Source: Sporocytophaga sp.
GTDB taxonomy: Bacteria; Bacteroidota; Bacteroidia; Cytophagales; Cytophagaceae
Length of the DNA: 57,869 nt
Assembly (NCBI RefSeq): GCF_017745095.1
Contig: NZ_JAGHZZ010000024.1
Location: 1 to 57,869, forward strand
Direction of reading: 5' to 3'
Numbering within the stretch: the stretch's first letter is position 1; every line of letters starts with the position of its first letter. The notes beneath the pieces are model-generated. The model worked only from the letters and a program-made list of their open reading frames with translations, did not search any database and was not told the origin of the DNA. This document shows positions 38,514-57,869 of the stretch, in pieces. The translations under genes were made by a program, and so were the position numbers.

Positions 38514-41090
38514 TTACCTTAATATCTGTAGCCAGCTTTTAAAATTTTGTAATTCATCCTTCTTTCTCAATCGTCTAACATACTTTACTTCAGCCACATA
38601 ATAGTATATTCCATCCTTATTTGTTCCTCCATTCCAATGGATAAAAATATCATCGTCCTGAGTATGAACTAGTGCTCCCCATCGATTGTAAACTGAAAAC
38701 TTTACTTTTTCAACATACCTAGGTGTCCGTAACGGCACAACTTCTTCATTCCATTCGTCATTATTTGGAGTGATAAGATTTGGCAATTCATATTCAACGC
38801 AATTATCTACACAAACTCTGTTACTTTGCAGACCTTCAACGCCGAAAATATTGACAGCTGAAACTGTATAGCAACCTGATAATGAAATAGTATTGAAATC
38901 AATATAGGTTGTATCTGGTACTGATTTAAAGAATTCTAATTCATCATCCTCATACTGTGCAAAATAGATATTATAGTGATCAATATTATTGCAGAATGGA
39001 TCCCCCACCCTTGTCCAGTTTAGAAGATTTCTGTTTAACAATACGGAATCTTGACAATTCTGGGTGGTAATTGTTAAAAATGGCGGTGGAGGAACCTGAT
39101 CATCCATAGGAATCTCACATTTAGTTTCTGATGTACTAATCAGGGGTTTTGAATATAAGGCATTGCAATAGCTTCCATAAGATTCCAAGTAATAACAGAA
39201 TGTATCACAATTAACAAGGTTTTCATCTGTGAAAGTCCCTGATATGCTTCCAGGCAATGTTTTATAAAAAGAAAACATTGCTTCATCATTCACTTTTCTA
39301 TAAAGCTTCAGTGAATCAATATTCCAAGGAACATTCATTGTCCAGGTTACAGTAACTTTTCTGTCACCAGGAATAGTCTGCAAAAATAAGGTACTTGCAG
39401 GATCACTAGGTATTGTGTCCGAAAACAGCAGATCTACTCTATAATTATAAGAAGTGTCTGCAGTGTTAAGTGGCTGATCAACAAATACCGTATCAGAATC
39501 AAATGTTTGGCCTATCTCTATATAATCTGTTCCATTAATACCTGTTGCTCTGAAGATTTTAAATGAATATGGACCTACAGGAGCTTTCAAAGGCTTAAAC
39601 CACTTAATGGTATTTACTCCAAGCAATGTATCAGTAACATCTACATTAACAGATGCTATGACTGCGGCATTGTCATCAAGGCTTCCACAGACTTCGTCCG
39701 AACCTTTACTTAAACCACCCTGAGGTAATTGAAAAGTTGCTACAATAACATAGCAATAAAAATTACCTCTTACTATTTTATCATTATCTAAATAAGTAGT
39801 CTGAGCTGCAGGCACCTCTGCCAAAAAAGTATATCCGGGAAAACCTTCTGCTCCAACCTGACAAGGATCCTGCTTATAATCAGTAAGATCACAACTTTTC
39901 CTATAAATACGAATTTTGCTAGCTGTAGAGCAATCATATTTATCCCATGTTAATCGCAATCCTTTTCCTTCCGGCACAACAGATTGTAATTTAGGAGGTT
40001 TGGCAATTACCTTTATTCGCAAAGTTTGATAATCTGCCAGTTGCAAAGTTGTATCAGAGGGATAATCAACCGCCTTAAATTCCACTTGATGAGGCTGATT
40101 TCTTGCATCCTCACAGCGAGTCAACCATCTGAAGGTACCTTTAGGATTTTTGCCATATGGAGGAGGATTAGTAAAAGTTGCACCCAATTGGTACACACCT
40201 GTAGGAGGATTATTTGTAGTAGTAATCTTTACATCATTATTATTTGGATCTGTAGCTTCAATTTCAAAAATCAAAGAATCTCCTGCTACTATACAAGTAT
40301 CAAGGCCTCTGGAAAGTTCAGGAGGATCATTTTTAGAAGGTAGAACCTCAATTTGCATATCCCTTGTTATATACCCAATTCTAACTCCATTCCTCCATTC
40401 TTCTACATAAAATGCTACATTAAACAATCCTTCTTCCTGAGGCACATTCCAAACCAAATCTCCGGTAATACTGTTTAAAGTCATATTGTCAGGTGTAAAA
40501 TATCCTGAGACATCTACCCCGGCAGCCTGTTTGGGAGTTACAAGTCTATATGAAATACTGTCACCTTCTATATCATAGGCGCCAGGGTTGTATACATAAA
40601 GCTTTCCCTTTTGTGCCTTATCCAAAGGGGGGATGGCCATTGTAGGAGAATAGTTTACAACCGACACACCGGAAACTACTGATACTAAAGATTCTATGTA
40701 AAATGGAGTATTTATAGAATTCCCAATATTCTTAATACTTCCATTTCTATTAGATTCTGTGTATCCAACCCTATAAGATCCCGTACCAGGATATGTATGT
40801 TCAAAATAATATATGTTTTCGTATGTGTCGTTCCGAATAAGTCTTTTAGAATCTCTTGGCTGCTCCAATGAAGTTCCGTCTCCAAAGTTTAATGTAGCAG
40901 TAGGATCATCCACCCCAGCATCAACTGCTGCTCGGTTGGTATAGACAATAAGTATAAATCTGTATCGAAGATCAGACAATCTTTGAGTAAGAATATTGCC
41001 CGCCCTGATGTGGGTAGCATGAGCTCGTTGTGCCAGGCAGAGCATAACGAATATTAAAAAATTTATATAACATGTTTTCAAAACCTTCAT
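38514..41090 (-). CDS. Secreted multi-domain protein with T9SS type B (gliding-motility-associated) C-terminal domain
   Basis: 858 residues. Signal peptide 1-25 (cleavage after AHA). The start THIRAGNI resembles a family of Bacteroidota surface proteins beginning with this motif. Then Ig-like, PKD and fibronectin III-like beta domains follow (for example RIYRKSC and KLYRKVNDEAMFSFYKTLPG) with many paired Cys. The last 85 residues (LITPNNDEWNEEV, VYNRWGALVH, GIYYYVAEVKY) form the gliding-motility-associated (CHU_C) T9SS type B sorting domain. Such proteins are exported by the T9SS and attached to or released from the cell surface as adhesins. Exact ligand unknown. Confidence 0.9.
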   Translation of the reverse strand: MKVLKTCYINFLIFVMLCLAQRAHATHIRAGNILTQRLSDLRYRFILIVYTNRAAVDAGVDDPTATLNFGDGTSLEQPRDSKRLIRNDTYENIYYFEHTYPGTGSYRVGYTESNRNGSIKNIGNSINTPFYIESLVSVVSGVSVVNYSPTMAIPPLDKAQKGKLYVYNPGAYDIEGDSISYRLVTPKQAAGVDVSGYFTPDNMTLNSITGDLVWNVPQEEGLFNVAFYVEEWRNGVRIGYITRDMQIEVLPSKNDPPELSRGLDTCIVAGDSLIFEIEATDPNNNDVKITTTNNPPTGVYQLGATFTNPPPYGKNPKGTFRWLTRCEDARNQPHQVEFKAVDYPSDTTLQLADYQTLRIKVIAKPPKLQSVVPEGKGLRLTWDKYDCSTASKIRIYRKSCDLTDYKQDPCQVGAEGFPGYTFLAEVPAAQTTYLDNDKIVRGNFYCYVIVATFQLPQGGLSKGSDEVCGSLDDNAAVIASVNVDVTDTLLGVNTIKWFKPLKAPVGPYSFKIFRATGINGTDYIEIGQTFDSDTVFVDQPLNTADTSYNYRVDLLFSDTIPSDPASTLFLQTIPGDRKVTVTWTMNVPWNIDSLKLYRKVNDEAMFSFYKTLPGSISGTFTDENLVNCDTFCYYLESYGSYCNALYSKPLISTSETKCEIPMDDQVPPPPFLTITTQNCQDSVLLNRNLLNWTRVGDPFCNNIDHYNIYFAQYEDDELEFFKSVPDTTYIDFNTISLSGCYTVSAVNIFGVEGLQSNRVCVDNCVEYELPNLITPNNDEWNEEVVPLRTPRYVEKVKFSVYNRWGALVHTQDDDIFIHWNGGTNKDGIYYYVAEVKYVRRLRKKDELQNFKSWLQILR

Positions 41091-41185
41091 TGCAATCTCG
41101 CTGGGATTATGTTATACACGCGAATAATTATTACAACGGAAATCGAATAATGTTTGAAATATGACAAAAAATGCAAAAAATTGCA

Positions 41186-41216
41186 TTGCATACTAAAATT
41201 CCCGAATGTAACTTTG
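41186..41216 (+). promoter_or_regulatory. Promoter of the sdhCAB operon
   Basis: TTGC (41186-41189) and TAACTTTG (41209-41216) with a 19-bp spacer match the Bacteroidota -33/-7 elements. The start would be near 41223, about 38 nt before sdhC. Confidence 0.7.
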
Positions 41217-41260
41217 GGCAAGTTAATATTAATTTAAAACTAAAAAAACACTATTAAATT

Positions 41261-41914
41261 ATGGGCTGGTTAAGTAAGGCTTTGTCCGGAAACCTTGGTC
41301 AAAAACTGATAATGTCTTTAACAGGTCTTTTTCTGATCTCGTTCCTGTTAGAACATCTTCTCAGTAATCTGCTGCTCCTGAAAAGTGATGGAGCTGATTT
41401 TAACGCCTACGCGGAATTCATGAAAACTAATCCCGTGATACAGGCAGCAGAGTATGTCCTTTTCGGAGGCTTCATTGTACACATTATCTATGCAGCAATC
41501 ATTACTGCAAAGAACAAAAAAGCCCGTCCTCACGGATATGCTTACAACAATCCTTCTGCAAACAGTAGCTGGTTTTCAAGAAATATGGGATTGTCAGGAT
41601 CAATGGTTCTGATCTTTCTTATCGTACACCTGAAGTCATTTTTTGTGCCTCACAAAATTACCCATTCTGCAACTATGACCATCTATGATGATGCAATCAT
41701 TACATTTGGTAATGTTCCATACACATTATTTTACGTGGCAGCAATGTGTCTTCTTGCATTCCACCTTAACCATGGTTTTCAAAGTGCATTCCAGACTTTG
41801 GGATTGAGACATCCTAAATATACTCCGTTCATCAAAAAATTGGGAACAGCATTCTCAATACTTGTTCCTGCGGGATTTGCAGCTATACCACTTTATATTT
41901 GTTTCATCAGATAG
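41261..41914 (+). CDS. sdhC: Succinate dehydrogenase/fumarate reductase cytochrome b subunit
   Basis: 217 residues with about five TM helices. The start [35 protein letters not shown] is typical of the Bacteroidota b558-type SdhC, in which one subunit carries two hemes and no SdhD exists. Heme-ligand candidate histidines are H47 (in LLEHLLSN), H78 and others in the TM segments, and later [12 protein letters not shown]. It anchors the flavoprotein and Fe-S subunits and passes electrons to or from menaquinone. sdhA starts 14 bp after sdhC ends. Confidence 0.92.
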
Positions 41915-41928
41915 TCCACATAATTGAT

Positions 41929-43845
41929 ATGACGAAATTAGATTCTAAAATTCCTGAAGGACCTGTAGCAGAGAAATGGACCAAGCATAAATTCAATCTG
42001 AAGCTTGTAAACCCTGCTAATAAAAGAAAATATGATATTATAGTGGTCGGAACCGGTTTGGCCGGAGCTTCTGCCGCAGCTACTCTTGCGGAACTTGGTT
42101 ATAATGTAAAAGCATTCTGTTTTCAGGATAGCCCTAGAAGAGCACACAGTATTGCAGCTCAGGGCGGTATCAATGCCGCAAAAAATTATCAAAATGATGG
42201 CGATAGTATTTTCAGATTATTCTATGATACTGTAAAAGGTGGAGACTATAGAGCTAGAGAAGGAAACGTTTACAGACTTGCAGAGGTCAGTGTAAATATA
42301 ATTGATCAGTGCGTTGCTCAGGGAGTGCCTTTTGCAAGAGAATATGGAGGACTTCTGGATAACAGATCATTTGGAGGAGCTCAGGTTTCAAGAACCTTTT
42401 ATGCAAGAGGACAAACTGGTCAGCAATTGCTTCTTGGAGCATACAGCGCATTATCAAGACAAATCGGTCTGGGTAAAGTTAAAATGTACTCCAGAACAGA
42501 AATGCTGGATCTGGTAATGATCGACGGAGCTGCAAAAGGTATAGTTACTAGAGACCTCGTAACGGGTGAGATCGCTTCACATGCAGGCCACGCAGTTCTT
42601 TTATGTACCGGTGGATATGGAAACGTATTCTACCTTTCAACAAATGCACAGGGCTCTAACGTTACTGCGGCATGGAGAGCTCACAAAAAAGGTGCATTCT
42701 TTGCCAACCCATGCTTTACTCAGATTCACCCTACATGTATTCCTGTTTCTGGAGATCATCAGTCAAAACTGACCTTGATGAGTGAAAGCTTAAGAAATGA
42801 CGGAAGGGTTTGGGTTCCTAAAAAAGTAGGAGACAAAAGAAATCCTTCGGAAATACCTGAAGATGAAAGAGATTATTTCCTTGAAAGAAAATACCCATCT
42901 TTCGGAAACCTTGTTCCAAGAGACGTTGCTTCAAGAAATGCAAAAGAGCAGTGTGATGCCAACAAAGGCGTAGGTTCAAGCGGACTAGCTGTTTATCTTG
43001 ATTTTGCCGACGCCATTAAGAGACTTGGTGAAAATTCAGTACGAGCAAAATATGGTAACTTGTTTGACATGTACGCTCAGATTACCGGTGAAAATCCTTA
43101 CAAATCTCCAATGCGTATTTATCCTGCAGTTCACTATACAATGGGTGGGCTTTGGGTTGATTACAATCTAATGACAACAATCCCTGGACTTTATGCACTT
43201 GGAGAAGCTAACTTCTCTGACCACGGAGCTAACAGACTTGGAGCCAGCGCCCTGATGCAAGGACTTGCTGATGGATACTTTGTAATCCCTTATACTGTAG
43301 GAGATTATCTTGCAGGACTTGGTACTAAACCTGTTGATAAAAACCATCCGGCCTTTAAAGAAGCAGAAGACAAAGTTAAAGCACTAACGAAAAAATTCCT
43401 TTCTATAAAAGGAACTAAAAGCGTAACGCACTACCATAGAGAACTTGGTAGAATCATGTGGGACTATTGCGGAATGGCTAGAAATGCTGAAGGTCTTACA
43501 AAGGCAAAAGGATTAATAAAAGATTTAAAAGAAGATTTCTGGAAAAACGTTAAAGTTCTAGGGGAAGGCGAAGAACTCAATCAAAGTCTTGAAAAAGCTG
43601 GTAGAGTTGCTGACTTTATAGAACTAGGAGCTCTAATGGTGGAAGACGCCCTGAACAGAAACGAATCATGCGGAGGACACTTCAGAGAAGAATATCAGAC
43701 TGAAGAAAACGAAGCAAAAAGAGATGATGAAAACTATGCCTATGTAGCAGCCTGGGAGTTTAAAGGAGAGGATAAGGCAGAAGAGCTTCACAAAGAAAAC
43801 CTAAAGTTTGAAACTGTTAAATTAACCCAGAGAAGTTACAAATAA
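41929..43845 (+). CDS. sdhA: Succinate dehydrogenase/fumarate reductase flavoprotein subunit
   Basis: 638 residues from the ATG at 41929; the frame also opens at a TTG 30 bp upstream (inside sdhC), which is unlikely. FAD-binding Rossmann motif [19 protein letters not shown] (about 38-56), the covalent-FAD His in [14 protein letters not shown], and the active-site Arg/His region ([29 protein letters not shown]) are intact. It oxidises succinate to fumarate in the TCA cycle, or the reverse in fumarate respiration. It overlaps sdhB by one base (TAATG). A large B. subtilis-type flavoprotein, complete. Confidence 0.97.
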
Positions 43846-44609
43846 TGAGCGGAACAATGAACTTAACTGTAAAAGTCTGGCGTCAGAAAAATTCCAAATC
43901 TGAAGGCAAGATGGTCTCTTACAATGTAAAAGATGTATCTCCAGACATGTCTTTCCTTGAAATGTTCGACGTTCTGAACGAGGACCTTATAAGCAAAGGA
44001 GATGAGCCTATCGCTTTTGACCATGACTGCCGCGAAGGTATCTGTGGTATGTGCAGTATGTATATTAATGGAAGAGCGCACGGACCCAAAACGGGTATCA
44101 CTACCTGTCAGCTCCATATGCGCAGCTTCAAAGATGGGGACACAATCGTTGTTGAACCATGGAGAGCTTCTGCATTCCCGGTTGTAAAAGATCTTGTAGT
44201 TGACAGAGGTGCGTTTGACAGGATTATCAATGCTGGTGGATTTGTTTCTGTTAACACAGGAGGAGTTCCTGATGCCAATGCAATTCCAATTTCGAAAATA
44301 GATGCAGATGCTGCTTTTGATGCTGCTACTTGTATAGGTTGCGGAGCATGTGTAGCTTCCTGTAAAAATGCATCAGCTTCACTTTTCGTTGCCGCAAAAA
44401 TTACTCAACTAGCTCTATTACCACAAGGACAGGTTGAAAGAGCTGCAAGGGTTGAGAAAATGGTAGCACAAATGGAAGCAGAAGGATTTGGTGCTTGCAC
44501 TAATACCGGAGCTTGTTCTGTAGAGTGTCCAAAAGAAATCTCTCAAGACACAATTGCAACAATGAATAGAGAGTATTATGCCGCTAAAGCAAGCTCTAAA
44601 AACGTTTAA
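43845..44609 (+). CDS. sdhB: Succinate dehydrogenase/fumarate reductase iron-sulfur subunit
   Basis: 254 residues. Cys clusters in order: [2Fe-2S] [13 protein letters not shown], [4Fe-4S] [13 protein letters not shown], and [3Fe-4S]/last cluster [15 protein letters not shown]. It bridges electrons between FAD (SdhA) and the heme/quinone subunit. The start overlaps the sdhA stop by one base, so translation is coupled. A clear intrinsic terminator follows, so sdhCAB is a three-gene operon. Confidence 0.97.
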
Positions 44610-46281: not shown

Positions 46282-47466
46282 TTAAAGCTTGAGTTTTCTT
46301 CTTTCTAATTCTTTCCTAATGAGCGAAAGCTCGCGCCCTGTCTGACCTTTAATAGATTTATTTTCTTCCGCTCTCCGAAGCAGATAAGGCATCACAGCCT
46401 CCAATGGTCCAAAGGGTAAGTACTTCCCTACATTGAACCTTTTCCTTGCCAAATTAAAGGAGATATGATCTCCCATGCCATAAAGCTGGGCAAAATAGAC
46501 TCTGTTATCATTATTATTCAGTTTCATCGATGCCATAATTTTAGTCTGAAACAAGTTACTCTCCTCATTGTGACTTCCTGAAACAATTGCTAAATGACTA
46601 AGGTTATTAAGGCAAAACTCGAGAGCCTCATTAAAAGCCTGATCGGTTTCCTCCTTAGTGGGAAAAATGGGAGAAGGGTATCCCAAATCCAAAGCCCTTT
46701 TACGCTCCTTTTCCATATAAGCCCCTCGCACAAGTTTTATCCCTAGTTTATAACCGCTTTCCTTTGCTGATTTTAACGCATAGCTTAAAAGAAAAGGCAT
46801 ATCCACTCTATACATTTGAAAAGTCCTAAAAATCAGCACATTATTTTTATTATATTGACTCATTAATTTCAAAGTAACAGCGTCGATGGTATCCTGAATC
46901 CAGCTTTCCTCTGCATCAACCATCAGTCTGACTCCAGCACTAGAGGCATAAGCTGCAATTTTTTCTACCATTTGATTGAAATGAGAGAATTCTTCTTTTT
47001 CAGTAAAATTTAATTCAATACCACTTTGAGTTTTTTCTAAAATGGAAAAACGACATAATGCTGTCATTTTAAATACAACAAATGGAATATTCTGGTCTGA
47101 AGCCGCTAAATCTATGGATTTTCGAAGCACTTCCATAGTATGGTCATAAGCTGCCATGGAGCTTTCAGCTTCTACGGCATAGTCTAAAATTGTTTTAATT
47201 CCCGAAGAACTAAGCTTATCGATTGCATTTTTGCATTCATCCAAATTTTCTCCTCCACAGAAATGATTAAAAAGTGTATTTTTTATTACTTTTTTAACAG
47301 GAAGTTTCCATTTTAGTGCACTTTTTACAAAATAACTGCCTATCTTTGTTAACTTACCCATCCCCATAATTGTGAATAAGAAATTCATTTTTTTTAGCTC
47401 ACGATCAGGACGGGAAGAAAAAGCTGCCGAAGTGTCGTCAAAAGATACAAGGTTGTGATTGTCCAT
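46282..47466 (-). CDS. Proline dehydrogenase
   Basis: 394 residues, FAD-dependent TIM-barrel enzyme oxidising proline to pyrroline-5-carboxylate with electrons to the quinone pool. The family core (about 60-380) includes the Lys/Arg pocket of GIKLVRGAYMEKERKRALDLGYPSPIFPTKEETDQAFNEAL, SGSHNEESN and a final FGPLEAVMPYLLRRAEENKS with the substrate-binding RR. This is the stand-alone (PRODH) form, not the PutA fusion. It is encoded divergently upstream of the DAHP synthase gene, with 63 bp between the two start codons. Confidence 0.93.
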   Translation of the reverse strand: MDNHNLVSFDDTSAAFSSRPDRELKKMNFLFTIMGMGKLTKIGSYFVKSALKWKLPVKKVIKNTLFNHFCGGENLDECKNAIDKLSSSGIKTILDYAVEAESSMAAYDHTMEVLRKSIDLAASDQNIPFVVFKMTALCRFSILEKTQSGIELNFTEKEEFSHFNQMVEKIAAYASSAGVRLMVDAEESWIQDTIDAVTLKLMSQYNKNNVLIFRTFQMYRVDMPFLLSYALKSAKESGYKLGIKLVRGAYMEKERKRALDLGYPSPIFPTKEETDQAFNEALEFCLNNLSHLAIVSGSHNEESNLFQTKIMASMKLNNNDNRVYFAQLYGMGDHISFNLARKRFNVGKYLPFGPLEAVMPYLLRRAEENKSIKGQTGRELSLIRKELERRKLKL

Positions 47467-47529: not shown

Positions 47530-48636
47530 ATGGAAGTTAACTTACAAGTAAATCCCTTAGAGAAGTGGGCAAAAGTAAAGGGCAAACCACTTGTCATTGC
47601 AGGGCCTTGCAGTGCTGAAACGCCGGAACAGTTAATGGCAACTGCGAAACTGTTAAAAGACCTAGGAAAAGTAGATGTCCTTAGAGCAGGTATCTGGAAA
47701 CCCAGAACTAGACCTAACAGCTTTGAAGGTGCAGGTGCAGAAGGTTTGAAATGGCTAGCCGATGTAAAAAAAGAACTTGGCATACCAGTAGGAACTGAAG
47801 TTGCAAATACACAACATGTTGAAGAAGCTCTGAAATATGGAATCGATGTACTTTGGATCGGTGCTAGAACAACTGTTAGCCCATTCTCTGTGCAGGAGAT
47901 GGCAGATGCGCTTCAAGGTGTAAAGAACGTTGCGGTTTTGGTTAAAAACCCAACCCACCCAGAACTTCCATTGTGGATCGGAGCATTCGAAAGACTATAT
48001 AGAGCTGGTATAAGAGACCTTGCAGCTATCCATAGAGGATTTGCAACATCTGATAAATCAAAATTCAGAAATATTCCAATGTGGCAAATTCCTATTGAGC
48101 TAAGAAGAATAGCTCCACAGATTCCTATCATCTGTGACCCTAGCCATATCGGAGGAAAAAGAGATCTTATATTTGAAATTTCTCAAAAAGCACTTGATCT
48201 TAACTTTGATGGTTTGATGATTGAAACACACATCACACCTGAGAAAGCATGGAGCGATGCAGATCAGCAAGTAACTCCAGCTAGACTTGAGGAAATTCTT
48301 TCTGAGCTAAAAGTTAGAAAAGACTCTTCTTCTGACAAAGACTTTAACGATCACCTTGACGATTTAAGAAAGAAAATAGACAATCTTGACAGAGAGCTTA
48401 TCGAAGTTCTTGCAGCAAGAATGGCTATCGTTGAGAAGATCGGAGAATATAAGAGAGAAAATAATGTGACAACCTATCAGGTTAAGAGATGGGATGACAT
48501 CATGAAGAACAGAGCTGATCTTGCAACAAAGATGAGTCTGAACCCTGAATACATTATAGAAATCTATAAAATCATTCACGAAGAAAGCATAAGAAAGCAG
48601 ACAGAGATCATGAAAGCTGTCGCTTCTAAAGCTTAA
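47530..48636 (+). CDS. Bifunctional DAHP synthase / chorismate mutase
   Basis: 368 residues from the ATG at 47530 (a TTG 12 bp upstream also opens the frame). Residues about 1-265 are type I-beta (KDO8P-synthase-like) DAHP synthase: VIAGPCSAETPEQLMATA, KPRTRPNSFEGAG, CDPSHIGGKRDL, METHITPEKAWSDA. Residues about 275-365 are an AroQ-type chorismate mutase (DLRKKIDNLDRELIEVLAARMAIVEKIGEYKREN; IIHEESIRKQTE). It makes DAHP, the first shikimate step, and converts chorismate to prephenate; in such fusions the mutase part often mediates feedback inhibition. Two terminator hairpins follow; aroB then starts after about 260 bp. Confidence 0.93.
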   Translation: MEVNLQVNPLEKWAKVKGKPLVIAGPCSAETPEQLMATAKLLKDLGKVDVLRAGIWKPRTRPNSFEGAGAEGLKWLADVKKELGIPVGTEVANTQHVEEALKYGIDVLWIGARTTVSPFSVQEMADALQGVKNVAVLVKNPTHPELPLWIGAFERLYRAGIRDLAAIHRGFATSDKSKFRNIPMWQIPIELRRIAPQIPIICDPSHIGGKRDLIFEISQKALDLNFDGLMIETHITPEKAWSDADQQVTPARLEEILSELKVRKDSSSDKDFNDHLDDLRKKIDNLDRELIEVLAARMAIVEKIGEYKRENNVTTYQVKRWDDIMKNRADLATKMSLNPEYIIEIYKIIHEESIRKQTEIMKAVASKA

Positions 48637-48680: not shown

Positions 48681-48701
48681 TTTGTGAAAAAAAAAATCTT
48701 T

Positions 48702-48738
48702 AAACCCGCAAGGTTATTAACTTTGCGGGTTTATTTTT
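48702..48738 (+). terminator. Intrinsic terminator between the DAHP synthase gene and aroB
   Basis: 10-bp stem AAACCCGCAA/TTGCGGGTTT (48702-48711 and 48723-48732) with GTT/AAC pairing inside, then ATTTTT. It is the stronger of two successive hairpins after the bifunctional gene. Confidence 0.85.
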
Positions 48739-48894: not shown

Positions 48895-49932
48895 ATGAGC
48901 AACCAATTAGTAGTCATCACAACAGGCATCAGAGAAGAACTGAACAAGTTTTTGAAGGAAAGAAAATTTTCTAAAATTGTATTGCTTGCAGATGAAAATA
49001 CATACAAATATTGTTTTCCCGTTCTAGGCATGAACCTACCGGAAGAACAAATAATTGTAATAAAAAGTGGTGAAGAGCAAAAGAATTTGCGCACTTGTGA
49101 GTACATTTGGGACAAGCTCACAGACCTTAGACTTGACAGAAAGGCATTGCTTATCAATCTGGGCGGAGGCGTTATTGGGGATATGGGCGGTTTTTGTGCT
49201 GCTACATACAAAAGGGGAATATCATTTGTGCAAGTGCCTACCACCCTACTGGCACAAGTGGATGCAAGTGTGGGAGGCAAATTAGGTATTGATTTTCATC
49301 TGTTCAAAAACCATATAGGAGTCTTTCGTATTCCTGATGCAGTGCTTATCGATACTATTTTTCTAAAGACTTTACCAAACAATGAACTACGTTCCGGGTT
49401 TGCTGAAATAATAAAACATACACTCATAGCTGATAAGAGCAAGTGGGAAGAGATCAGACAAAAGAGTCTGGCTCAGCAAGAGTGGCAAAATCTGGTAGAA
49501 CATTCAGTGCTGATCAAGAAAAAAGTTACAGAAGAAGATCCTGAGGAAAAAGGACTGAGAAAAATTCTGAACTTTGGCCATACGATTGGCCATGCGATAG
49601 AAAGCTACTTCCTGAATATACCTCATAAAAAATTGCTACATGGCGAGGCAATTGCAATAGGAATGATTTGCGAGGCATATATATCAATGAAAAAAGGCTT
49701 TATATCACAACAGGAACTGAATGAAATAAAAAATTATATCATTGCAATTTTTGGAAAAACAGAAATTTTTGAATACGATTCGGAAAAAATTCTACCTTTA
49801 ACTTTGCAGGACAAAAAAAATGAGCAAGATGAAATACTAGGTTCCTTATTAAACCCGATAGGGCATTCAACCTATAACCATCCTCTTACATTTAAAGACA
49901 TAATGGATTCAATTCGTTTTTATTCTTTATAA
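48895..49932 (+). CDS. aroB: 3-Dehydroquinate synthase
   Basis: 345 residues, cytoplasmic. It cyclises DAHP to 3-dehydroquinate with NAD and a divalent metal. Hallmarks: NAD-binding NLGGGVIGDMGGFCAA (about 89-104), the PTTLLAQVDASVGGK segment, the metal-ligand Glu/His set (FAEIIKH, LNFGHTIGHAIES, HGEAIAIGM). aroA follows only 2 bp after its stop, so both must be one transcript, which supports the shikimate identity of the unusual fused aroA. Confidence 0.96.
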   Translation: MSNQLVVITTGIREELNKFLKERKFSKIVLLADENTYKYCFPVLGMNLPEEQIIVIKSGEEQKNLRTCEYIWDKLTDLRLDRKALLINLGGGVIGDMGGFCAATYKRGISFVQVPTTLLAQVDASVGGKLGIDFHLFKNHIGVFRIPDAVLIDTIFLKTLPNNELRSGFAEIIKHTLIADKSKWEEIRQKSLAQQEWQNLVEHSVLIKKKVTEEDPEEKGLRKILNFGHTIGHAIESYFLNIPHKKLLHGEAIAIGMICEAYISMKKGFISQQELNEIKNYIIAIFGKTEIFEYDSEKILPLTLQDKKNEQDEILGSLLNPIGHSTYNHPLTFKDIMDSIRFYSL

Positions 49933-49934
49933 AA

Positions 49935-51809
49935 ATGGCAAAAAAGAAACTGAAAGCTAAAACAACGGCCAAGAAAGCAGCCGTAAAAAAAGCAGCGGGC
50001 AAGAAAGCTACCGCGAAGAAAGCAGCTGCGAAAAAGGCTACAGCTAAGAAAGCTGCAAGCAAAAAAACAGCCGCTAAAAAAACAGTTGCTAAAAAAGCTA
50101 CTGGCAAAAAAGCTGCTACCAAAAAGGTCGCATCCAAAAAGACTACTGCTAAAAAAGCAGTTGCTAAGAAAGCTGCTGGTAAAAAAGCTGCTGTTAAAAA
50201 GGCAGTAGCTAAAAAAGCTACAGCTAAAAAAGCAGTTAGCAAAAAGGTAGCCGGCAAAAAAGCTGTTGCTAAGAAAGCAGTTTCAAAAAAAGCCGTTAGC
50301 AAAAAAGCAGTAGCTAAAAAAACTACCGCTAAAAAAGCTGTAATAGCTAAAAAGGCTGTTGCTAAGAAAACTGTTGCTAAGAAAGCAGTAGTAGCTAAAA
50401 AGACTGTTGCCAAGAAGACTGTTGCTAAAAAAGCAGTAGTAGCTAAAAAGGCTGTTGCTAAGAAGACAGTCGCTAAAAAGACAGTCGCTAAAAAGCCTGC
50501 AACTAAAAAAGTAACTTCAGAACAAGTAATAACTCCGGTTCAACCCGAGATTACACTGGCAGAGCAAACAACTCCTTCTGTTCAGGAAAACGTTCTAAGC
50601 ATCAACAAACTATCTCAAACTATTGAGGTTGCAATCAACCCTCCTGCTTCTAAGAGCGAAAGTAACCGTGTATTGGTTATAAATGCGCTCGCAGGTGGTT
50701 CTGCGAAACTTGAAAACCTTTCAAATGCCAGAGATACCCAGACACTTATCCGTCTTCTTAAATCTGATGAACAAGAACTGGATGTGCTTGATGCCGGCAC
50801 TACAATGAGATTCCTTACTGCATATTGCGCAGTAACTGGAAAAGAAGTAGTTCTTACTGGTACAAAAAGAATGAAGGAAAGACCTATAGGACTTCTTGTA
50901 GATGCATTAAGACAACTTGGTGCTGAAATCGAATATGAAGGAAAAGAAGGCTTCCCTCCTATTAAACTTTCAGGTTTTGATAAAGAAAAAGCTGAGAATA
51001 ACAGAATTCAAATTAGAGGCGATGTGAGCAGCCAGTACATTTCTGCTCTTCTGATGATCGCTCCTCTGCTTCCAAACGGTTTGGTTCTTGAACTTACAGG
51101 AAAAGTAAGCTCTAAACCATATATCGAAATGACTCTTGATCTTCTTTTCCATTTTGGAATTGAAAGCGAATGGGAAGGTAATTATATAACAATCAAAAAT
51201 CAGGAATTTATACCTGCTGATTATACAGTGGAATCCGATTGGTCTGCTGCGAGCTACTGGTATGCTATAGCTGCTTTGTCACCTGATGCTAAAATTGAGC
51301 TAAGCGGTTACAAATATGGTTCAATCCAGGGCGACAGCAAAATCGCTGACTTCATGGATCTTTTAGGAGTAAAAACAACGTACCTTGAAGAAGGAATCGC
51401 TCTTGAAAACCAAGAAGTAAAAGGCGTGGAATCACTTGATTTCTCAGACAATCCTGATCTTGCTCAAACTATTGCTGTAGTTGCTGCAGCTAAAGGTATT
51501 GAACTTACTCTTACAGGTCTTGACAGTCTTAGAATAAAAGAGACCGACAGAATCACTGCTCTTCAAAACGAACTTAAGAAATTCGGAAGCGAGCTGGTTG
51601 AAGTTGAAGAAAACTCTGTATACAAAATAGTAAAAGGAGACTTCGAAGTAAACGGTCAGGAAGTTGATACTTATGAAGATCACCGTATGGCTATGGCCTT
51701 CGCTCCTCTGGCTGTATTAGGTCCAATTAAAATTGAAAACCCTGAAGTAGTAGAGAAATCTTATCCTCATTTCTGGGAAGATCTAGAAAAAGCAGGATTT
51801 AATTTCTAA
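49935..51809 (+). CDS. aroA: EPSP synthase (AroA) with N-terminal histone-H1-like Lys/Ala repeat domain
   Basis: 624 residues. Residues 1-195 are almost only Lys, Ala, Val and Thr in about 36 copies of a five-residue xKKxx unit, like the C-terminal tails of histone H1, AlgP or Hc1-type proteins. Residues 196-220 are an acidic/Gln/Thr linker. Residues from about 215 are a complete EPSP synthase (usual length about 410-430): PPASKSESNRVLVINAL, DAGTTMRFLTAYCAV, GDVSSQYISALLMIAP, SDWSAASYWYAI, KETDRITALQNEL and YEDHRMAMAFAPL. It joins shikimate-3-phosphate and PEP to give EPSP. No ATG, GTG or TTG lies between the repeat and the catalytic start, so the enzyme must be made as the fusion. Frame and start (2 bp after aroB) are unbroken. 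The tail's role (nucleic-acid binding or retention) is inference. Confidence 0.92.
   Translation: MAKKKLKAKTTAKKAAVKKAAGKKATAKKAAAKKATAKKAASKKTAAKKTVAKKATGKKAATKKVASKKTTAKKAVAKKAAGKKAAVKKAVAKKATAKKAVSKKVAGKKAVAKKAVSKKAVSKKAVAKKTTAKKAVIAKKAVAKKTVAKKAVVAKKTVAKKTVAKKAVVAKKAVAKKTVAKKTVAKKPATKKVTSEQVITPVQPEITLAEQTTPSVQENVLSINKLSQTIEVAINPPASKSESNRVLVINALAGGSAKLENLSNARDTQTLIRLLKSDEQELDVLDAGTTMRFLTAYCAVTGKEVVLTGTKRMKERPIGLLVDALRQLGAEIEYEGKEGFPPIKLSGFDKEKAENNRIQIRGDVSSQYISALLMIAPLLPNGLVLELTGKVSSKPYIEMTLDLLFHFGIESEWEGNYITIKNQEFIPADYTVESDWSAASYWYAIAALSPDAKIELSGYKYGSIQGDSKIADFMDLLGVKTTYLEEGIALENQEVKGVESLDFSDNPDLAQTIAVVAAAKGIELTLTGLDSLRIKETDRITALQNELKKFGSELVEVEENSVYKIVKGDFEVNGQEVDTYEDHRMAMAFAPLAVLGPIKIENPEVVEKSYPHFWEDLEKAGFNF
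49968..50517 (+). repeat. Low-complexity tandem coding repeat (about 36 x 15 bp)
   Basis: Repeats of GCTAAAAAAGCAGTT-like units (codon pattern x-AAA/AAG-AAA-x-x), each of 15 bp with three 18-bp variants. The DNA units differ at many silent positions, so the protein repeat is kept by selection or old expansion rather than by very recent copying. Confidence 0.9.
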
Positions 51810-57742: not shown

Positions 57743-57869
57743 ATTGAGGCTTTTCGCTTAAAAATTGGAGCTTCCACCCGAAAACTGGAGCTTTTTACCC
57801 AAAAATTGGAGCTTTCTACCCGAAAATTGGAGCTTTCTACCCGAAAATTGGAGCTTTCTACCCGAAAAA
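57743..57869. repeat. 21-bp tandem repeat running to the window edge
   Basis: Six units of 20-21 bp on the pattern ATTGGAGCTTTCTACCCGAA, the last three (57805-57825, 57826-57846, 57847-57867) identical and the earlier ones diverged. The unit equals seven codons. On the minus strand one frame reads FRVESSN repeatedly and stops with TGA at 57718-57720, then stays open as a second short stretch (MNQFEGKDGIRGD) to a stop at 57665-57667. It may be the 3' end of a repetitive gene outside the window. Confidence 0.9.

Follow-up and report, generated by a model that had tools for sequence, protein, structure and literature searches.

Chlamydial Hc2 and the Burkholderia-type H1-like proteins, which share Lys/Ala arrays with the locus described here, are free nucleoproteins. 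Long, H1-like Lys/Ala-rich arrays joined to another domain occur in AlgP and PhaF of Pseudomonas, where they are C-terminal, contain proline, and are carried by non-biosynthetic proteins. PMC9239181, from which this description is taken, also reports that AlgP associates with polyphosphate granules, that a fragment of its Lys-rich, KPAA-repeat C-terminal domain binds DNA, and that PhaF, whose C-terminal domain is homologous to that of AlgP, probably links PHA granules with the chromosome. Lys-rich tails on a folded domain that itself acts on DNA are described for HupB, in which the tail is reported to be indispensable for nucleoid association in vivo (PMC5676037), and for actinobacterial topoisomerase I (PMC7398561). 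According to two further sources, prokaryotic Lys-rich low-complexity regions are enriched in DNA-binding proteins (PMC6821194), and in Pseudomonas there is an interaction between polyphosphate and lysine-rich sequences (PMC12077175). EPSP synthase, for its part, is found within a larger chain in AROM, AroA-cytidylate kinase, and prephenate dehydrogenase-AroA proteins (PDB and NCBIfam entries), the partners of which are enzymes.

The locus analyzed here lies in a 57,869-nucleotide stretch of DNA from a Sporocytophaga sp. (hereafter, the window) and encodes an EPSP synthase preceded by a Lys/Ala array. The array is joined to an enzyme, and its likeness to Hc2 and the Burkholderia-type H1-like proteins is one of pattern only. 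It differs from the arrays of AlgP and PhaF in being N-terminal, in containing a single proline, and in being carried by a biosynthetic enzyme, and it contrasts with the tails of HupB and topoisomerase I in that EPSP synthase is not, to our knowledge, known to work on DNA. Unlike the known EPSP synthase fusions, the partner is a low-complexity polycation.

In the open-access literature we found no published description of an AroA (EPSPS) with an H1-like or lysine-rich N-terminal extension, and what we found there on H1-like or lysine-rich tails of metabolic enzymes likewise included no description of an AroA fusion. The words aroA, carboxyvinyltransferase, and histone are absent from the main text of PMC6247017, and aroA is not mentioned in the available text of PMC3784963. 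An EPSPS census of 1175 multi-domain proteins names "histones" among the structural EPSPS-associated domains, without naming the species in its available part (PMC9394408), and the architecture may for this reason already have been catalogued. The statement in the initial annotation that no such fusion had been described therefore stands for the papers that we found and is weakened by the mention of histones in the census.

The fusion of the array and AroA in one frame, as proposed in the initial annotation, is confirmed (Table 1). The open reading frame begins with an ATG at 49935, two bases past the aroB stop, also as annotated; the annotated figures of 195 residues and about 36 repeats were nearly right, our own counts being 192 residues and 37 KK pairs. 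Residues 1-193 comprise 77 lysines, 59 alanines, 25 valines, 19 threonines, and few others. The net charge of the whole extension (residues 1-220) is +73, and that of the catalytic domain is -24. Codons 2 to 246 of the window frame contain no in-frame ATG, GTG, or TTG, in agreement with the annotated lack of an internal start before the catalytic domain; the first such codon is a TTG at codon 247, beyond the SKSESNR loop (residues 239-245), and the rarer start codons ATA, ATT, and CTG are present in the linker. In a sister species, the array includes an ATG (codon 11) and three GTGs (codons 51, 95, and 120), and in a second it includes one GTG (codon 188); in none of the three species of the genus with an intact frame does the linker, or the point where the domain begins, contain an ATG, GTG, or TTG. 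A strong terminator-like hairpin (48701-48733, + strand) lies between the DAHP synthase-chorismate mutase gene and aroB, and because it precedes aroB, aroB and aroA may form a transcription unit of their own.

Table 1 Coordinates of the aroA fusion gene, its parts, and its neighbors in the window.
Feature	Position	Strand	Description
DAHP synthase-chorismate mutase gene	47530..48636	+	Pfam DAHP_synth_1 and CM_2; upstream, in the same aromatic cluster
aroB, 3-dehydroquinate synthase	48895..49932	+	TIGR01357, 341 bits (cut-off 305)
Low-divergence stretch	49727..50060 (ends approximate)	+	End of aroB into start of array; 90-100% identity in 40-base blocks to the other three genomes of the genus
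aroA fusion gene	49935..51809	+	Protein of 624 residues (67 kDa by calculation) consisting of an N-terminal Lys/Ala array, a linker, and EPSP synthase
Lys-rich H1/Hc2-like array	49935..50510	+	Residues 1-192; 37 KK pairs, mostly pentameric xKKxx units; net charge +77
Linker	50511..50594	+	Residues 193-220 (28 residues), without lysine; net charge -4
EPSP synthase domain	50595..51806	+	Residues 221-624; columns invariant among 37 relatives kept

The catalytic part passes the NCBIfam aroA model TIGR01356 with 319.3 bits (cut-off 287.25). When the fusion protein was aligned with 37 of the 80 AroA loci, the columns invariant among the 38 sequences were found to include SKS 239-241, R245, R312, Q367, D508, K535, E536, R539, H583, R584, and K608, residues that were also compared in an alignment with solved enzymes; this bears out the annotated intactness of the EPSP synthase motifs; for these residues we assume the catalytic roles of EPSP synthase. 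In an AlphaFold2 model, the mean pLDDT per 10-residue block is at least 85 from residue 221 onward, except for one block at 76, and the predicted structure has the two-domain EPSPS fold; the best Foldseek match in the PDB is E. coli EPSPS (3fjx; E 2.7e-38, TMt 0.83), with Klebsiella EPSPS also among the best. Residues 1-220 have pLDDT values of 36-74, with long helices drawn at low confidence. The genome encodes a second protein of the EPSPS family that passes the MurA cut-off and fails the AroA cut-off, and as that protein is MurA, no AroA other than the fusion was found in the genome. The fusion is presumably expressed and active.

The extension is present at the same aroB-aroA junction in all four genomes examined from the genus, and the frame is intact in three (G000, G001, and G002), with 220, 228, and 233 residues, respectively, ahead of the domain. 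In the fourth (G003; locus L007, G003:C5:630671-632664), the frame is interrupted inside the array and at one point in the catalytic part. These breaks coincide, by eye, with an extra A in A-runs, and the aroB of that genome also changes frame; we therefore suspect sequencing errors, real decay being the alternative. Within the family, the search matched 18 of 19 genomes (four in the genus and 14 outside it; the unmatched genome is 69% complete), and the AroA of each of the 14 outside the genus has an ordinary start and no N-terminal Lys/Ala extension. Relatives that are 61-65% identical thus lack the tail. In 13 of the 14, aroB directly precedes aroA, the first in-frame aroA ATG falling between -44 and +47 nt relative to the stop codon of aroB; in the remaining one (L011), the 1.5 kb upstream of aroA yielded no aroB. 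Because these outgroups have aroB directly before an ordinary aroA, the array probably originated at the aroB-aroA junction, by insertion or by growth, and a start codon of aroA close to the domain has disappeared. On the arrangement in the 13 outgroups we rejected the possibility that the array is a separate upstream gene, a situation that the initial annotation had named as evidence against a fusion, and the presence of the same junction in the other three genomes of the genus makes a one-off misassembly, also named there, very unlikely.

Beyond the family, the order search matched 360 of 390 genomes and the phylum search 358 of 395. Among the matches listed, we found no open frame longer than 495 codons outside the genus in the order and no Lys-extended AroA outside the genus in the phylum. 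The distribution of Lys/Ala extensions among Cytophagales AroA homologues, which the initial annotation proposed to examine, is accordingly four of four genomes in the genus, none of 14 in other members of the family, and none among the order matches listed. Three long frames from the phylum were considered as candidates for a wider occurrence (G397, 679 codons; G392, 585; G742, 525) and rejected, as they have ordinary starts and encode 434, 434, and 422 residues, respectively, from the first ATG. At 92 further AroA loci (80 + 12, one cut at a contig end), no Lys-rich extension was seen; upstream of the match, the open frame at these loci continues for at most 108 codons, with 7 lysines.

When scored against Pfam HC2 (cut-off 40 bits), the array reached 89.6 bits for residues 1-193 and 93.9 bits for residues 1-220, and it fell short of the NCBIfam cut-offs for Hc2 (NF038052, 76.0 of 135 bits) and for the Burkholderia-type proteins (NF038053, 62.6 of 80 bits). 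All four shuffled arrays that kept the lysine positions also matched HC2 (72.4-102 bits), and none of five composition shuffles did. As shuffles that keep the lysine positions pass as well, the HC2 match is no evidence of descent, and homology to chlamydial Hc2 finds no support beyond the spacing of the KK pairs. The array may, by analogy, work like an H1-type polycation. The annotated H1-like tail on AroA can therefore be retained as a likeness of pattern, homology not being demonstrable, and with the extension placed N-terminally and separated from the enzyme by the lysine-free linker. When 194 genomes of the order were searched for HC2-like arrays, 15 had matches at E 1e-6 or better, and the best matches were the AroA arrays of the four genomes of the genus.

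Arrays of the same KK kind are found at the ends of other proteins in the family, and Pfam was run on 8 of the 17 loci with Lys-rich arrays. The carriers include topoisomerase I (L027, C-terminal), DksA/TraR-type zinc-finger proteins (L036 and L055, N-terminal), a DUF6496 protein (L048), a protein with an N-terminal tail in which Pfam found only HC2 (L029), and proteins without another domain. The genome that contains the window also encodes a protein with a Lys-rich tail (L025) in which no other domain was found and HC2 scored below the cut-off, and which we take to be Hc1-like. Where the function of the folded part is known, these proteins belong to DNA or transcription machinery; the array type is at home on nucleic-acid proteins of the family, and AroA is the odd carrier. 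Two observations were made alongside this survey. The L029 locus, which lies in the same genome on contig C55 (L029:670-1806), is a 379-codon frame that begins with a Lys-rich array of the same type and continues into a region without a Pfam match, which presumably resembles GreA/GreB-type proteins. In other genera of the family, L035, L036, L038, and L055 combine long N-terminal Lys-rich arrays with a DksA/TraR-type end, assigned by sequence likeness in L035 and L038.

In a protein-guided alignment of the three intact species, which favors placing lysine against lysine, none of the 73 aligned lysine columns varies, and of the 108 non-lysine array columns 87 are invariant and 21 variable. Since every lysine column is unchanged while 21 of the 108 others vary, the lysine pattern looks to be under selection. 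Pairwise codon alignments scored on nucleotides, which avoid the mispairing of repeats and the inflated synonymous counts that a protein-guided alignment can produce, gave 75, 73, and 79 pairs of lysine codons, with 7, 10, and 6 synonymous and no non-synonymous differences. From the same nucleotide-scored alignments, dN/dS in the three species pairs was 0.08, 0.13, and 0.16 for the whole array and 0.08, 0.07, and 0.05 for the catalytic part. Over the opening 60 columns of the array alignment, the ratio was 0.59, 0.91, and 0.90, calculated from 1-2 synonymous and 3-6 non-synonymous differences, the high values arising because synonymous change is nearly absent there. The linker has the highest dN of the three parts in every species pair (0.145, 0.125, and 0.050), although in the third pair it barely exceeds that of the array (0.048). 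The number of repeats varies, and with it the length of the extension among the species, which indicates that the exact array sequence is not needed.

The scarcity of synonymous change at the beginning of the array extends from the end of aroB (low-divergence stretch, Table 1). The dS values were 0.06-0.12 for the last 60 aroB codons, 0.03-0.06 for the start of the array, 0.44-0.48 for the rest of the array, and 0.36-0.66 for the catalytic part. As a control, we examined 422 overlapping sixty-codon windows from 12 ORFs (17.9 kb), and similarly quiet starts were found in sdhC, sdhB, proline dehydrogenase, and the gene at 41929; one other aroB window was also low in one pair (dS 0.097). Because other gene starts of the region show the same pattern, the quiet stretch is read as the mark of a genuine gene start and not as a special element, and a special RNA or promoter element at the junction was rejected on the same control. 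The junction block contains no Rfam match at the gathering threshold and no match to TTTG-N15-23-TAnnTTTG. As an observation on the region at large, third positions change little over approximately 60 codons at the starts of sdhC (41041-41470), sdhB (43721-44054), proline dehydrogenase (47257-47464), and the aroA fusion (49707-50114), and in places the quiet gene starts extend into the stretch just upstream.

Codon choice within the array was also uneven. An A-ending codon before an AAR-AAR pair yields an A-run of seven or more. Such codons precede 3 of 37 AAR-AAR pairs in the array vs 12 of 31 in the 33 other ORFs of the window (Fisher p = 0.003, an optimistic value because repeat units related by amplification are not independent), and A-ending codons follow KK at 17 of 37 positions in the array. 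In other Lys-rich genes of the genome, A-ending codons before AAR-AAR number 1 of 17 (L025), 3 of 15 (L029), and 3 of 8 (topoisomerase I tail); the bias is not general for Lys-rich tails. The avoidance in the array is as would be expected if slippage in a translated array were costly, a reading that is suggestive only.

The most likely reading, to which we assign a probability of roughly 0.48, is by analogy that the array acts as an electrostatic tether between the enzyme and a polyanion. The sole EPSP synthase would have gained the N-terminal polycationic array at the aroB-aroA junction in the ancestor of the genus and lost its old start codon, so that a single chain would be translated, beginning at the ATG at 49935. 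Its lysines would then park the enzyme, without sequence specificity, on nucleoid DNA, RNA, or polyphosphate granules, and they might also draw the acidic catalytic domains together; catalysis itself would be ordinary. The tethering itself, the choice of polyanion, and any advantage are inferred. Consistent with a tether are the presence of the fusion in all four genomes of the genus (three intact) vs none of the 14 other AroA proteins of the family, the retention of the lysines, the opposite charges of the extension and the catalytic part, and the occurrence of arrays in the family on topoisomerase I and DksA/TraR-type proteins. With respect to polyphosphate, an E. coli study reports that PASK motifs, the usual binders of polyphosphate, occur rarely in bacteria (PMC12345225), and the window array, unlike those motifs, is not acidic/serine-rich, which counts against polyphosphate as the anchor. 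Polyphosphate kinase is encoded in all four genomes of the genus and in the one tail-less relative tested; since that relative has it too, the kinase is permissive, not diagnostic, and does not explain the fusion. Against a tether of any kind stand the dN/dS values of the first 60 array columns, where protein-level constraint is not demonstrated, and the lack of an obvious reason for tethering EPSP synthase. It is unlikely, in our estimate, that the sole EPSP synthase goes further and doubles as an H1-like architectural protein, or that it is stored on and released from polyphosphate.

A Lys/Ala repeat could instead have arisen, or been captured, at the junction and become fused in frame, with the start codon now ahead of it, and have been kept simply because EPSP synthase tolerates an N-terminal extension, the lysines being maintained by avoidance of aggregation or toxicity. 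Such tolerated growth, which we regard as possible although doubtful, would accommodate the differing repeat numbers, the few events behind the ratios of 0.59-0.91 at the start of the array, HC2-like scores that stem from a spacing pattern, and relatives at 61-65% identity that manage without a tail. It sits less well with 73 invariant lysine columns and the lack of any non-synonymous lysine-codon change in all three pairs, and an extension of charge +73 would be a large cost for a passenger carried in all four genomes of the genus. The chain might also be a precursor whose cleavage in the linker would release the H1/Hc2-like basic part as a protein of its own and leave an ordinary EPSP synthase, the two being made in fixed ratio. 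A linker without lysine whose dN is the highest of the three parts in each pair, and an array scoring above the HC2 cut-off, would suit this distinctly unlikely arrangement, but with the separate Lys-rich gene L025 in the genome a free H1-like protein needs no second source.

Whereas the tether and both of these accounts concern the protein, the A-rich array could act as mRNA or on ribosome traffic, through translation coupling to aroB or through pausing. This might be suggested by the low dS from the last 60 aroB codons into the array (0.03-0.12 vs 0.36-0.66 in the catalytic part) and by the predicted folding of 49740-50110 (z = -2.2). We nevertheless consider such an expression device very improbable: third positions are about equally conserved where sdhC, sdhB, proline dehydrogenase, and the gene at 41929 begin, another aroB window is low in one pair, and synonymous sites in the remainder of the array diverge freely while its lysines are kept. 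Hardly any credence is left for a misassembly, or for a separate catalytic product made from an internal start. The broken frame of G003 and the rare start codons in the linker could be cited for these, but the frame is intact and the junction the same in three genomes, the G003 breaks at A-runs and the frame change in its aroB would fit sequencing errors, and ATG, GTG, and TTG are lacking from codons 2-246 of the window frame and, in all three intact species, from the linker and the domain start.

The genus offers a natural experiment in which a well-understood soluble enzyme with a simple assay carries a conserved polycationic tail that close relatives lack. It allows a clean test of the effects of such a tail on an enzyme (location, condensation, and kinetics), apart from the usual DNA-binding domains, and it would show whether the tethering of biosynthetic enzymes to nucleoid or polyphosphate occurs in bacteria. 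If the unlikely reading of an architectural or polyphosphate-stored EPSP synthase were true, a central metabolic enzyme would have been turned into a chromosome- or polyphosphate-bound one, and the flux to aromatic amino acids would be tied to nucleoid state or phosphate starvation.

Two further features of the window were noted. An antisense open frame of 173 codons (49892-50413, - strand) runs over the array and encodes a hydrophobic, F/L/A-rich product; it is probably a by-product of the codons of the repeat. A tandem repeat with a 21/42-base unit and 90-92% matches occupies 57760-57868, at the very end of the window.
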